Source: a virus. Taken from it: DNA of 27,344 nucleotides. Both the position numbers and the translations under genes were made by a program. Below, piece by piece: positions 5,603 to 21,413 of this stretch. The notes below the pieces were generated by a model, which was given only the letters and a program-made list of their open reading frames with translations, made no database searches and was not told the DNA's origin. Location of the stretch: IMG/VR virus record IMGVR_UViG_3300020164_000010, positions 1-27,344 of that record; one strand, written 5' to 3'. Each line of letters opens with the position of its first letter. The first letter of the stretch is position 1.

Positions 5603-6100
5603 TTAGTCATCATCACCATCACCATTTCTTCTTCTTTGCTCTTCAGCTAACTTATCAAGAAACTCTTTAAGTTCTGGTGGTAATGAATCACCATCAATTG
5701 GTTCATCTTCACTCTGTCCTTTTGTAAGATTATCAAGCATCTTTTTGATATTATCTGGAAGATCATCAGCATCTAATTGTATAGATTTAACTGATGATTT
5801 CAGATTTTTCAACTTTTGCTCTAATTTCTCTCCAAATCTATCTATTTTATCTTGTAGATACATTGATGATAAAACTACCAATTGAGAATAACTAAACTCA
5901 TTAGCACATGTTTCTACTAATTGACTTGGTGATGAATTTTCTCTAATATTTTTATCATCATCAAATATAAAATCTTTTAGTATAGTTGATACTTGTGTAC
6001 CAAGATCATCTAAATAAGAATCTTCTACACCTATTGCTTTAGCAAGTTTCTTCTGACCGTGATCAAAGGTGAATATTCCACCTGATTTTGTTGCATTCAT
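5603..6100 (-). CDS. Acidic helical hypothetical protein
   Basis: This 165-aa protein is unrecognised. It starts MNATKSGGIFTFDHGQKK, has a helical coiled-coil-like middle (DKIDRFGEKLEQKLKNLKSS, about 95-115) and an acidic tail ending RRRNGDGDDD. The start is 1 nt after the leader decamer at 6102-6111. It sits immediately upstream of the MoxR-like ATPase and VWA genes and may be their substrate or adaptor, which is inference from position only. Confidence 0.75.
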   Translation of the reverse strand: MNATKSGGIFTFDHGQKKLAKAIGVEDSYLDDLGTQVSTILKDFIFDDDKNIRENSSPSQLVETCANEFSYSQLVVLSSMYLQDKIDRFGEKLEQKLKNLKSSVKSIQLDADDLPDNIKKMLDNLTKGQSEDEPIDGDSLPPELKEFLDKLAEEQRRRNGDGDDD

Positions 6101-6120
6101 GTTATTAAGGATTTAATTGA

Positions 6121-6276
6121 TTACTGTTCTATTGTTTGTCTAACGTCTATTGTTCTTTCTCTTACAATTCCATTTCTGAAATTATATATCACTTCAATGA
6201 TCAACCTCTTAGCTTTGATTCCTCTAAATCTATCTGTTGATGCTACCAATGTACCTTTACTCACTCTAGCTCTCAT
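6121..6276 (-). CDS. 51-aa basic hypothetical protein
   Basis: The frame starts MRARVSKGTLVASTDRFRG and ends RTIDVRQTIEQ. It is rich in Arg/Lys and alternates hydrophobic residues as in a small beta fold. Its ATG overlaps the stop of the upstream 76-aa gene as ATGA, the same coupling seen at 1437 and 6681. Function unknown; nucleic-acid binding is possible from its charge. Confidence 0.65.
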   Translation of the reverse strand: MRARVSKGTLVASTDRFRGIKAKRLIIEVIYNFRNGIVRERTIDVRQTIEQ

Positions 6277-6503
6277 AATAAGCTAATAAGTGATACTATG
6301 ATATTAAATGCTATTAATGAATATAAAGATATTACAAGAATCTTATTCTCTTTCTTATAGATAGTGATTAATCTATCAGCTACATCTAATCTTGAATCTT
6401 TTAGCTTCATAAGATCATCAGCTATTCTAATTGCTTTTTGTTGCATTTCTATTAACTCATTCATTGAGTGTAATGCATCTTCCATACTTCTTTCTTTTGC
6501 CAT
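6273..6503 (-). CDS. Tail-anchored small membrane protein
   Basis: This 76-aa protein has a long amphipathic helix (residues about 5-52, many Met/Glu/Lys, coiled-coil-like) followed by one C-terminal membrane span (55-76, ILVISLYSLIAFNIIVSLIS). The topology suggests a cytoplasmic helix tethered to the inner membrane. Its start is preceded by AAATAACAATG, a context shared with several genes here. It is coupled by ATGA to the 51-aa gene. A holin-accessory or host-envelope role is conceivable but not shown. Confidence 0.7.
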   Translation of the reverse strand: MAKERSMEDALHSMNELIEMQQKAIRIADDLMKLKDSRLDVADRLITIYKKENKILVISLYSLIAFNIIVSLISLL

Positions 6504-6522
6504 TGTTATTTGATTTAATTGA

Positions 6523-6684
6523 TTATTTCTTTGCTATCATCATACCAATTATCATTGGCACTGTAAAAGGGCTAAATATAAATACTATATAAGCTCTTTT
6601 TGTAACTTCGTCTAATGTAGAATATTCTTCTAACATCATTCCTGCCATAACTAAGTATGACAGGAATATGTATAACATCATCAT
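6523..6684 (-). CDS. 53-aa two-span membrane microprotein
   Basis: The frame begins MMMLYIFLSYLVMAGMMLEE and ends IIGMMIAKK. Two hydrophobic spans (about 1-17 and 31-50) flank a charged 12-residue loop (EEYSTLDEVTKR). The first of three tandem ATGs (6684) overlaps the upstream stop as ATGA; one of the next two ATGs could be used instead. A small double-span protein in a phage operon may alter the host membrane; function is not known. Confidence 0.65.
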   Translation of the reverse strand: MMMLYIFLSYLVMAGMMLEEYSTLDEVTKRAYIVFIFSPFTVPMIIGMMIAKK

Positions 6685-6872
6685 AGTCCTATCATTTCAT
6701 CAAAGCAACTCTCTAACAAGAATGTTAAATGTTGTCTTTCGTGATACAATACATCTAATTGTTCCTCAAGCTCATGAATGTTTGTGTCATCATGTGCATC
6801 TCTAAGACTATCTATACAATGTATTTCATTTGTAATAGTCTGTAATCTCTGTTCAATTTGTTCTGTTATCAT
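6681..6872 (-). CDS. 63-aa coiled-coil hypothetical protein
   Basis: Starting MITEQIEQRLQTITNEIHC, the protein is predicted to be almost entirely helical with a heptad-like pattern of Leu/Ile and Glu/Gln (HELEEQLDVLYHERQHLTFL). It has His and Cys residues but no clear metal motif. It is coupled to the downstream membrane microprotein gene by ATGA and lies 2 nt after the upstream 68-aa membrane protein gene. These may form one complex; function unknown. Confidence 0.65.
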   Translation of the reverse strand: MITEQIEQRLQTITNEIHCIDSLRDAHDDTNIHELEEQLDVLYHERQHLTFLLESCFDEMIGL

Positions 6873-6874
6873 AA

Positions 6875-7081
6875 TTAATAGTTGTTAAGTTTTTCTTCAA
6901 GATCACATGCTACAATAACACTTGGTATCCAACCAAATATTCCCATACACATTAATGTTCCCATATTTATGTAACAATCACGTAAGGATAGATCAGATAA
7001 GAAATATCCAATAAGACTCATAAGAGTCCATGTACCAATAGCTGTAAATATAACAGCTAACATAATTTTTGTTGATTTCAT
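6875..7081 (-). CDS. 68-aa two-span membrane protein
   Basis: A basic start (MKSTK) is followed by a span at about 7-28 (MLAVIFTAIGTWTLMSLIGY) and another at about 40-59 (MGTLMCMGIFGWIPSVIVAC), ending with an acidic tail. The TCCTTAATAA leader lies 2 nt upstream of the ATG and contains the stop codon of the preceding gene. Function unknown. Confidence 0.7.
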   Translation of the reverse strand: MKSTKIMLAVIFTAIGTWTLMSLIGYFLSDLSLRDCYINMGTLMCMGIFGWIPSVIVACDLEEKLNNY

Positions 7082-7086
7082 AATTA

Positions 7087-7413
7087 TTAAGGATTAACGT
7101 TAAAATGAATTCTTTTAGGAAATTTGTTATCAAATACAAACTTTGTTACATCACACAACCAAACAGGTGTAAAACCTAAATGATATATACATCCATTTGG
7201 TGGTGTTTGAATAATTCTCTTCAGTGTAGTATATCCATAAGGACATTCTTTATCTGTTGACAGTGATAAACTCACTGTAGTTCCATTGTTTGATAGATGA
7301 TCTAATAATGTATCAGCTCCTCCTACCATTTGTAATGCTGCTTTTGTTCCTTCCCAAGTTGGTAATACTATATACCAATTGCCTTGTTCTTTGTTAAATG
7401 TGTAATCGTTCAT
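7087..7413 (-). CDS. DUF6717-like protein
   Basis: The 108-aa sequence fits my recollection of the DUF6717 family: GNWYIVLPTWEG near residue 12, VGGADTLLDHL at about 30-40, a strand-rich centre with TLKRII, then VWLCDVTKFVF and FPKRIHF at the end. Length suits a single compact domain. The family has no established function; members occur in phages and bacteria. Its final codons (N-P-stop) are built from the leader decamer of the next gene. The family call is from pattern memory only. Confidence 0.65.
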   Translation of the reverse strand: MNDYTFNKEQGNWYIVLPTWEGTKAALQMVGGADTLLDHLSNNGTTVSLSLSTDKECPYGYTTLKRIIQTPPNGCIYHLGFTPVWLCDVTKFVFDNKFPKRIHFNVNP

Positions 7414-7420
7414 TGTTATT

Positions 7421-7702
7421 TTATTTGTTTTTTAAATATTCTTCTATTTCTTCTGTAAGTTGTTCTATGTAGAACATATGACTATCAGCTTCTCTATTAG
7501 ATAAGTATTTAATACTACTTAAATAGATTGAGTTATAATCAATTGGAAAAGTTGATGATCCAAATGAAGGATGTGGATGTGCTATAACAATTCCTTCACT
7601 ACCAAATCCTAATGATGTACATTTATATATTGTTCCATGTTTATCTGAAAATACATACACCATATCATTTACTGTCTTATTCTTTCTTAAATCTATTGCC
7701 AT
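7421..7702 (-). CDS. Hypothetical protein, SH3-like strand-rich
   Basis: The 93-aa protein begins MAIDLRKNKTVNDMVYVF. Residues about 12-60 look strand-rich with Gly and aromatic residues (DKHGTIYKCTSLGFGSEG), and the end is helical and acidic (IEQLTEEIEEYLKNK). The leader decamer lies 9 nt upstream of its ATG. No family recognised. Confidence 0.65.
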   Translation of the reverse strand: MAIDLRKNKTVNDMVYVFSDKHGTIYKCTSLGFGSEGIVIAHPHPSFGSSTFPIDYNSIYLSSIKYLSNREADSHMFYIEQLTEEIEEYLKNK

Positions 7703-7728
7703 TCTTGTTTGTTATTAAGGAGTTAATG

Positions 7729-7917
7729 TTATATTTTATTTTGACCAAATATATCAAAATCTTGTGCTTCCATATCAGCATTTATATCATCAATGTATTT
7801 GATTTCTTGAAACAATGCTTCAATATCTTTAGCTGTTTCTTCAGAAGCATATTGTTCTAATGATATAATAATATTCAGAGCTCTGTCTAAATACTCATTT
7901 AATTGAGTTATGTCCAT
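7729..7917 (-). CDS. 62-aa helical hypothetical protein
   Basis: It starts MDITQLNEYLDRALNIIISL and is predicted all helical with an acidic second half (DIEALFQEIKYIDDINADME). The leader decamer lies 10 nt upstream of the ATG. It is the first gene after the structured gene-free block at 7.95-8.30 kb, which may form its 5' untranslated region. Function unknown. Confidence 0.65.
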   Translation of the reverse strand: MDITQLNEYLDRALNIIISLEQYASEETAKDIEALFQEIKYIDDINADMEAQDFDIFGQNKI

Positions 7918-7957: not shown

Positions 7958-8287
7958 TCTCTCATAGTCCGCTAGATGTGTTAGTAGGAATGTTCCATAC
8001 TATGAGAGAATATTAAAATCATTGTTATCAAAAGCGTGCTTTACAGGATGTCGCTTTTAGCCTGACAAAATATAACAATGAATATAGTTAAGGTTAGACT
8101 TCTCTGCGAGCTTACCATGTACTCTTTCAACATATGCTGGCGGTCCATCTCTTTATAACTATTTATTGTAAATCAACTATAGCATGTGTTATATCCTTTA
8201 ATGCTCTTCTAAACTACACCAATCATCTGTTGGTAGTTGATTATTCATACATTCTTAGGAGTGTATAATATACTCAGGATATGTATG
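7958..8287. ncRNA. Array of five tandem stem-closed RNA domains
   Basis: No credible gene lies here. Five back-to-back inverted-repeat-closed units tile the block: 7958-8009 (11-bp stem TCTCTCATAGT), 8020-8080 (9-bp CATTGTTAT, inner 7-bp AAAAGCG), 8084-8162 (7-bp ATAGTTA), 8171-8242 (9-bp AATCAACTA, with inner ACCAA/TTGGT and AGCAT/ATGCT arms) and 8246-8287 (7-bp CATACAT, inner GAGT/ACTC). Gaps are 3-10 nt. Units are 42-79 nt, but none has a T-loop or anticodon arm of a tRNA. The stems are perfect, so strand cannot be decided; leftward transcription would make them the leader of the 62-aa gene operon. They may form one multidomain RNA or several processed RNAs. Confidence 0.55.
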
Positions 8288-8298
8288 TTTATTTAAAA

Positions 8299-8316
8299 GG
8301 GCCCGTAGAAGAGCCC
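8299..8316 (-). terminator. Terminator after the 8327 gene
   Basis: On the minus strand GGGCTC pairs with GGGCCC (6 bp, one wobble, loop TTCTAC), followed by TTTTAAAT. It is 10 nt after the stop of the leftward gene at 8327-8575 and insulates the structured RNA block. Confidence 0.65.
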
Positions 8317-8326
8317 ATTATTATTA

Positions 8327-8575
8327 TTATCTAACTTCTATTTCTTGTAATATATAAAAAGATTTAGTTCCTAATGATATACAAGCTTTACTTTCTATAT
8401 ATTTACTAAAGTCTTGAGACCATTTAGTTATAACAAATAAGTTTCCTGTTTCTTTATCTTTACATAAGTAGTTCATAATGCTATATATATTATTTATGTT
8501 GATTAGTTTTGTTGTTGTTTGATTTAGTGTGTTATTAGTGTGTATGTCTCCACTACTACCAATAAACACACACAA
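8327..8575 (-). CDS. Small hypothetical protein, start uncertain
   Basis: The open frame codes for up to 82 aa, but the first 33 residues (MCVFIGSSGDIHTNNTLNQ onward) are low in complexity and look like translated leader. An internal ATG at 8476 would give a 49-aa protein, MNYLCKDKETGNLFVITK onward. I favour the shorter form but give the full frame. The terminator at 8299-8316 follows. No family recognised. Confidence 0.5.
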   Translation of the reverse strand: MCVFIGSSGDIHTNNTLNQTTTKLININNIYSIMNYLCKDKETGNLFVITKWSQDFSKYIESKACISLGTKSFYILQEIEVR

Positions 8576-8605
8576 AAAGTTTTTTTCTCCCTCGTAAAAA
8601 GTTTT
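8574..8605. promoter_or_regulatory. Paired AAAAAGTTTT repeats in a 118-bp intergenic gap
   Basis: AAAAAGTTTT occurs at 8574-8583 and 8596-8605, a near-palindromic decamer repeated at 22-bp spacing, two helical turns. The gap 8576-8693 has no gene. It may hold a promoter or operator for the 8327 gene, but no clean TAnnTTTG box is seen. Confidence 0.3.
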
Positions 8606-8686
8606 ATTTATCTATATATATAGGAGTGAAAACTAATTGTGTGTGATTTTGTGTTATATATGTGTATAATCATATATGAGGAACCA

Positions 8687-20398: not shown

Positions 20399-20416
20399 GT
20401 AGCTAGTTTTAAAAAT

Positions 20417-20687
20417 ATAAAAGCATATGATAACGTATGTAGTTATTAATTCAGGAAATAAAGTAAGAGAATGTTTCTTAGATGATAAAAAAGTAAATAT
20501 AAAAAATGTAACACCAGTGGCTACATTAAATGAAAAAACTAATAAAATTATCTGGCTTGATGAAACATTTAAAAATAAAGAAATTAATACTCCTGTAATT
20601 GCTATTAATTTCAATAAAAAAATAACAGTAGATGACCCAAAAGGTATTTTTTGTATAGGGCATTTAAATAAATAAAAGCATATGATA
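20417..20687 (+). repeat. 16-bp direct repeats bracketing the 82-aa gene
   Basis: ATAAAAGCATATGATA occurs at 20417-20432 and 20672-20687, each copy holding the start codon and leader of a gene (20427 and 20682). The repeat interval is 255 bp. Deletion between copies would remove the 82-aa gene exactly and leave an intact leader for the 243-aa gene, so the small gene looks like a recent insertion with leader duplication. Confidence 0.8.
20427..20675 (+). CDS. 82-aa inserted small protein (moron-like)
   Basis: The protein starts MITYVVINSGNKVRECFLDD and looks strand-rich (VTPVATLNEKTNKIIWLDE, DTPVIAINFNKK-type segments), ending IGHLNK. It contains two Cys and is lysine-rich. It sits between two virion genes and is bracketed by 16-bp repeats carrying the leader, suggesting acquisition as a cassette. 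A decoration or accessory protein is possible; function unknown. Confidence 0.65.
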   Translation: MITYVVINSGNKVRECFLDDKKVNIKNVTPVATLNEKTNKIIWLDETFKNKEINTPVIAINFNKKITVDDPKGIFCIGHLNK

Positions 20688-21413
20688 CCAGTAGATAGTT
20701 TATTATACAAGATCGATCAGAAACTAAATAAACTATCAACTAATGAGCACCAAATGATTCAATTAGAAGACAAAATCTTAGCTTTGAATGAAGCTCAGAT
20801 TAAGTTGATAAAACAAAAGGTTGATGGAATTAGTGTTGCTAATGGATTAGGAATGGATTCATTTAAAAAACGTTATGAAGACTTACAAAGTCTTGTAATG
20901 AATTATAATCACCAACCTTTAACATTAACATTAAAGGATGCTGATTTAAACCAATGGGCTGCTAACATTCATTTACTTGAACCTAAGTATATGTTTTATG
21001 TTGATAGTTATGCATTAGCTGATAAAGGAAGATGTAAAGATAGAAAGATATGGATCAATAGAGACCTTGCAAAACATGGTGATCTTCAATTCATATTAAA
21101 CAATGATCATTACAAACCTTCATTTGAATACCAAGAAACATTTAATTTCTTAGCCTCAGATGAAATAAGTATATTCACAGATGGTACTTTTACCCCTAAG
21201 AATATACAGATAATGTACATGAGATATCCAGTGTATATAAATAAGACAGGATATATTATGTTAGATGGTTTACCATCTTATGATGCTGATTGTGAATTAG
21301 AAACATATCTAGAAGATGAACTTTTAGATCTTACAGTTCAGAATCTAGCAATGTATACAGAGAATCAATCTGCTGTTCAAAATGCAGCATATAGGATTCA
21401 AACAAACGAATAA
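20682..21413 (+). CDS. Head-tail connector / ring-like structural protein
   Basis: The 243-aa protein starts MIPVDSLLYKIDQKLNKLST with a helical N-terminal third, then a strand-rich part (KYMFYVDSYALADKGRCKDR, FTPKNIQIMYMRYPVYIN) and a C-terminal helix (ELETYLEDELLDLTVQNLAM). The final helical pattern and the place between MCP and tail genes fit adaptor or ring proteins that connect portal and tail in crAss-like virions. This is an inference from layout. Confidence 0.6.
   Translation: MIPVDSLLYKIDQKLNKLSTNEHQMIQLEDKILALNEAQIKLIKQKVDGISVANGLGMDSFKKRYEDLQSLVMNYNHQPLTLTLKDADLNQWAANIHLLEPKYMFYVDSYALADKGRCKDRKIWINRDLAKHGDLQFILNNDHYKPSFEYQETFNFLASDEISIFTDGTFTPKNIQIMYMRYPVYINKTGYIMLDGLPSYDADCELETYLEDELLDLTVQNLAMYTENQSAVQNAAYRIQTNE

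Follow-up and report, generated by a model that had tools for sequence, protein, structure and literature searches.

An array of five small structured elements, probably separate RNA genes, at an accessory locus of a crAss-like phage contig

The window analysed here, one whole IMG/VR contig of 27,344 bases, carries five consecutive structured units that are probably separate small RNA genes, processed after transcription and acting most likely as decoys or inhibitors of host factors. As conserved, exchangeable structured elements the units are on solid ground; they are most probably RNAs, and the function proposed for them is hypothetical. The rightward genes of the window encode a terminase, a portal and a major head protein that match crAss-like families. 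The array lies within a leftward operon, between two small minus-strand ORFs for which no PHROG family was matched in the PHROG comparison. The features, in leftward order, are the following:

8327..8575, minus strand: small 82-aa ORF with a TTG start, preceding the array; no family
8299..8316, minus strand: conserved terminator-like hairpin, GGGCTCTTCTACGGGCCC followed by TTTT, upstream border of the array
8246..8287, minus strand: unit 5, 42 nt, a hairpin interrupted by an internal loop and closed by a 7-bp stem
8171..8242, minus strand: unit 4, 72 nt, three-way junction, P1 of 9 bp
8084..8162, minus strand: unit 3, 79 nt, 7-bp closing stem, long imperfect hairpin
8019..8081, minus strand: unit 2, 63 nt, 10-bp closing stem around a predicted H-type pseudoknot
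7958..8009, minus strand: unit 1, 52 nt, 11-bp closing stem, core AUGGNN..UCCUACUAACACAUCUAGMGG
7729..7917, minus strand: small 62-aa ORF that follows the array; no family

A sequence-only reading of the window had described five tandem units with perfect closing stems of 7-11 bp, and an independent scan recovered all five at these positions, with perfect Watson-Crick closing stems and gaps of 2-9 nt between consecutive units. That reading had proposed a comparison with dinucleotide-shuffled sequence as a possible refutation. The summed stem score of the array is 44. In 1000 shuffles with dinucleotides preserved it averaged 10.7 (sd 6.3) and peaked at 34, and neither the score of the array nor the number of five units was reached in any of the 1000. 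The block 7958-8287 is also gene-free as had been stated, the longest ORF overlapping it on either strand being at most 44 aa. Folding of the entire block gave an energy just moderately below expectation (z about -2.2, whichever strand is folded), so that the tiling and the homologues, rather than the energy, carry the case. When the perfect-stem test, which does not count bulged or G-U-containing stems, was applied to nine arrays of relatives, the observed score was reached in 0-3 of 500 shuffles in four of them and in 18/500 and 28/500 in two, and nothing unusual was seen in the remaining three. Elsewhere in the window, the highest density of perfect inverted repeats (score 37) lies at 20401-20740, over a small ORF and its flanks.

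The array matched no known family. The Rfam search suggested by the earlier reading (Rfam 15) gave no match at the gathering threshold and none convincing at relaxed thresholds, and neither ARAGORN nor Rfam called a tRNA or tmRNA in 7958-8287, in agreement with the statement that the units are not tRNAs. The block matches itself only as a whole, with no near-identical tandem repeats of about 36 nt among the five units. Searching annotated phages and plasmids with the whole block at the DNA level returned nothing convincing, and searches of annotated phages with the cores only returned matches at chance level. One unit-4-like match in crAssphage cr124_1 was discarded, as it lies inside a CDS and scores like the other chance matches.

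Relatives were collected through the terminase of the window, which has 469 confirmed relatives among virus contigs; searches anchored on the proteins of two ORFs near the array returned none. The region was compared by BLAST with 80 loci, followed by iterative profile searches and pattern scans. The BLAST matches were partial and ended near unit edges: only unit 1 in L006, only unit 4 in L013, units 4-5 in L028 and units 2-4 in L020. The number of loci was 14 for unit 4 (in single copy per record), 9 for unit 1, 7 for unit 2, 3 for unit 5 and 2 for unit 3. Other blocks present at the same locus in relatives were labelled A-N, and ten of them recur in at least two loci. Altogether there are at least 15 recurrent blocks and 21 distinct unit-unit junctions, mostly downstream of the terminator-like hairpin, which bounds the array on its upstream side in about 20 relatives. 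Representative block orders are:

Window: hairpin-5-4-3-2-1
L020: hairpin-4-3-2
L028: hairpin-5-4-M
L093: hairpin-4-1-M-E2
L006: hairpin-H-G-1
L013: hairpin-H-4-B
L021: hairpin-K-4-M
L035: hairpin-J-A-4-B

Eight different units are found directly after the hairpin across relatives. In L012, L017 and L053 small ORFs, not units, follow the hairpin; small ORFs occupying the same place indicate that the locus is an accessory one. Comparison of these loci shows the predicted units being gained, lost and exchanged singly between phages, as accessory genes behave. Block B (L011, L013, L031, L032, L035, L059 and L096) is conserved at both its 5' and 3' ends, between which lies an insert that varies greatly in length and sequence; it resembles a fixed core with a free peripheral arm.

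These block orders bear on two of the explanations offered by the earlier reading. The direct tandem of five units with very short gaps would suit one multidomain RNA of about 330 nt working as a whole. This is scarcely credible since the units are separable in evolution: they occur alone, reordered or beside other units, and the full set of five is absent from every relative, including the nearest, L020, which lacks units 1 and 5. The second, a cis-acting structured leader or attenuator of the ORF at 7729-7917, draws on unit 1 ending about 40 nt before the start of this ORF. We consider it very unlikely, because the same unit precedes different ORFs (in L006, L122, L123 and L126) or other units (in L092 and L093). 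The position of the ORF is itself taken by unrelated ORFs or other units in relatives, and the constant link to one downstream gene that is expected of a cis-regulatory leader or riboswitch was not found.

The structures were then assessed by covariation, with counts based on 4-12 sequences per unit and ignoring the kinship among them. For unit 1 (9 loci), four quite different closing stems enclose a near-invariant core. All 54 of its 54 pair cells are standard, 13 being changed on both sides, and the covariation score is 0.815, against 0.272 (sd 0.071) for shuffled sequences and at most 0.267 with slid partners. In unit 2 the closing stem is replaced with pairing kept: all four of the 4 inner closing-stem pairs are changed on both sides, as is one pair of the inner hairpin. 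The predicted layout of the unit 2 pseudoknot is CAGG-CUA-(stem)-ACAUCCUGUAAAGCA-(stem). The CAGG/CCTG pairing proposed by the earlier reading is possible and kept in all homologues; it is invariant save for one change of G-C to G-U. The three-way junction that had been read in unit 4 was seen again in homologues, with a second arm of very different lengths. Its P2 is variable, P3 is GCAU/AUGC and the joining strand UAGAAGAGC is conserved; compensatory changes occur in P1 and P3. Among the lettered blocks, covariation was assessed for family G alone, and its closing stem covaries. Thus the covariation that had been called for was found as compensatory changes in units 1, 2 and 4, and for units 3 and 5 divergent copies are too scarce: unit 3 has a single near-identical relative (L020), and unit 5 has two relatives in which the closing stem is invariant. 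The case for structure is strongest in the control with slid partners and in the fact that stems are replaced completely.

By this comparison units 1, 2 and 4 are conserved structured elements. Judging from the sequences, each unit is a family of its own, with a near-invariant core and a closing stem that is free in sequence provided that pairing is kept. As a separate observation, the CAGAGAAGUC stretch of unit 3 is reminiscent of the hairpin ribozyme. This candidate was rejected, the second loop not being seen and no Rfam match being found.

Units 1 and 2 reach beyond close relatives. Unit 1 is present, with its core kept, on two other crAss-like phages, L126 and L122, whose terminases share with that of the window 31% identity over 285 aa and 29% over about 439 aa, respectively. 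L126 is a 45-kb contig binned in a Chitinophagaceae MAG and carries genes for terminase, portal and head; unit 1 shares its strand with tRNAs and with a pistol ribozyme, the latter at L126 2569-2630 (plus strand), 0.5 kb from unit 1. Unit 1 also occurs on L123 and L125, which were counted apart from the crAss-like L126 and L122; L125 carries in addition a tRNA nucleotidyltransferase. Exact matches to the unit 1 core, sought in one genome each of about 85,000 species, were restricted to two single-copy MAG contigs. A search of 395 Bacteroidota genomes with the unit 1 model recovered L126 and two weak matches, which were rejected as the conserved core is missing. Unit 2 was found in the phage contigs L086 and L088, which carry ribonucleotide-reductase and HNH genes. 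There it lies inside a gene-free block of 1.75 kb together with tRNA-Met, tRNA-Ile and a permuted tmRNA, all on the same strand. By eye, the L086 block (6000-7760, minus strand) holds further tRNA-like sequences not called by ARAGORN. For the unit 2 core, about 85,000 genomes of bacteria and archaea gave no exact match. Units 1, 2 and 4 are single copy per genome.

We also weighed the possibility that the units are DNA-level elements without RNA function, such as recombination sites, mobile palindromes or operators. Each unit is bounded by inverted repeats and looks mobile, and one Chitinophagaceae operator matches the 5' half of unit 2 at 26 of 27 nt. Unlike terminal inverted repeats, though, the closing stems of homologous units differ completely yet pair; there is one copy per genome; orientation follows the tRNA and tmRNA genes; and the operator match was seen in one genome out of 395 and is a member of the series of operators of that gene itself. 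Taken with these points, a purely DNA-level role is highly improbable. The operator in question is located at L143 1480-1540 (G047:C23:8490-8527), at a gene pair for mobile mystery proteins A and B (XRE + Fic) that neighbours a tRNA gene. Mimicry of it by unit 2 was set aside as a probable coincidence, other operators of the mobile-mystery A/B family showing no resemblance.

The homologues, the flanking genes, the co-located tRNAs and tmRNA and the wobble pairs (6 G-U against 2 A-C cells, which favours the minus strand) together indicate that the units would be transcribed on the minus strand. The sequence in front of the array has no promoter-like site above chance level, and the Bacteroidota -7 promoter motif shows no excess in the window. 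Transcription therefore probably comes through the hairpin and, as the hairpin looks like a terminator, read-through is assumed. A short element, CACACACAAAAAGTTTTTTTCTCCCTCGTAAAAAG..., located before the leftward operon at window 8574-8609, is strongly conserved in relatives, where it is sometimes present twice or on both strands; it is a possible phage promoter or regulatory site.

The reading that we favour is that of five minus-strand RNA genes of 42-79 nt each, situated in a variable accessory locus of the leftward operon. Read-through of the operon would yield a polycistronic transcript, RNases would cut the short A/U-rich linkers of 2-9 nt between units, and the closing stems would protect the released RNAs, as in phage tRNA clusters. 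Each RNA would then bind a particular host factor (an RNase, a toxin, the ribosome or an RNA-processing protein) as a decoy or inhibitor, which would make the units the RNA counterpart of small anti-host or anti-defence proteins. The earlier reading had listed a set of processed small RNAs among its options. The part of it that concerns separate units is sustained, the units being inherited, lost and exchanged singly with covarying closing stems; transcription and processing are at the stage of a prediction. Host-factor binding is the most likely role, although this is inferred and less certain, because the content of the locus varies like that of accessory genes while the cores are almost frozen. 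A conserved host component as the partner best accounts for a near-invariant, largely unpaired core within a stem that can be replaced, for single-copy units present in some phages and absent from others, and for their spread among distant phages. A single copy per genome is modest for a sponge and counts to a modest degree against a decoy.

Two further explanations assign the units other partners or a narrower role. In the first, the units would be base-pairing regulatory RNAs whose conserved single-stranded stretches, presented by the stems, are antisense seeds against phage or host transcripts. Long invariant unpaired stretches, such as UAGAAGAGC of unit 4 and CUACUAACACAUCUAG of unit 1, speak for it, and 8-9 nt of the former are complementary to the loop side of GGGCUCUUCUACGGGCCC, the conserved hairpin. 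We regard it as doubtful, given that the hairpin sequence is unchanged in L006, L012 and L017, relatives without unit 4, that 21 Chitinophagaceae genomes contain the complement of the unit 1 stretch no more often than its reversed control, and that the cores are kept across the whole motif, beyond a seed. The complement of unit 2 is commoner than its control, though not at one shared site, and rRNA as a universal antisense target was not supported. The hairpin loop GCUCUUCUA is the segment complementary over 8-9 nt to the invariant UAGAAGAGC strand; a pairing of unit 4 with the terminator hairpin was rejected, the complementarity being real yet the hairpin being kept where unit 4 is absent.

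In the second, the units, above all unit 2, would imitate the antitoxins of type III or other RNA-inhibited toxins, which is a special case of the decoy model. The size (about 38 nt) and the predicted pseudoknot topology of unit 2 agree with this, and phage pseudo-ToxI provides a precedent (PMC3475682). Such mimicry is nevertheless unlikely: there is no Rfam match, the units are not tandem repeats of one sequence and, with no exact match to the unit 2 core in the genomes searched, a cognate antitoxin is not in sight.

It is a serious possibility, just short of probable, that crAss-like phages, and other phages too, keep in their accessory loci a large stock of exchangeable small-RNA cassettes that has gone undescribed, each with a near-frozen aptamer-like core inside a closing stem that evolves freely. 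Such cassettes would be the RNA counterpart of anti-host and anti-defence gene islands. Phage accessory genes have so far been catalogued almost only as proteins; if expressed, the units would form a second, RNA-based accessory gene pool, invisible to gene callers and Rfam. Near-frozen cores common to distant phages could serve as baits for the host factors bound, and the anatomy of the units (an invariant core, a free but pairing closing stem and short A/U-rich linkers) could serve as a search rule. No description of such arrays in crAss-like phages was found in the literature searched, most subscription papers lying outside it; with this partial coverage, priority cannot be claimed.

A tmRNA gene with the tag ANAQIEANMNKVFSLLNEDVVVGLAA was detected at 2269-2599 on the minus strand (E 3.7e-15, just below the Rfam gathering score), within a second gene-free block of the window at 1719-2856 that contains further hairpins. 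A 50-nt piece of this block region is 92% identical to Cellulophaga phage phi14:2, and tmRNAs were also predicted in two relatives, L022 and L033.

None of the four kinds of phage RNA with which we compared the array, T4 RNAC/RNAD, ROOL/GOLLD, pseudo-ToxI and Racr, matches it in sequence or in all defining features. The RNAC and RNAD genes sit in the T4 tRNA cluster. Both RNAs resemble the units in being small, structured and phage-borne, but T4 has two of them, whereas relatives of the window exchange at least 15 blocks at their accessory locus, in many cases with no adjacent tRNA, and no sequence match to the units was found in annotated phages. They appear late in infection and their function is unknown (PMC9697503). 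ROOL and GOLLD are structured RNAs carried by phages, whose function is unknown and which frequently lie close to tRNA islands (PMC12286853); they are single large RNAs (GOLLD often exceeding 800 nt) that form multimers, in contrast to the separate 42-79 nt units, and their Rfam models have no match in the array. The pseudo-ToxI of phage PhiTE acts via a small pseudoknot (PMC3475682); the one predicted for unit 2 is of the H type and of similar size. Pseudo-ToxI, however, repeats a single 36-nt sequence, similar to a host antitoxin, in tandem, whereas the units differ from one another and no host counterpart was found for the unit 2 core. Racrs are small phage RNAs, organised as solitary units, that sequester host defence proteins (PMC10651486), and by analogy the units may work like these RNA anti-CRISPRs; Racrs imitate host CRISPR repeats, whereas the unit 1 and 2 cores were not found as host repeats. 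Phage tRNA/tmRNA clusters resemble the array in another respect. The units themselves are not tRNAs according to ARAGORN and Rfam, but such clusters are likewise tandem, polycistronic RNA genes gained and lost between relatives, and in L086 unit 2 is located within one.
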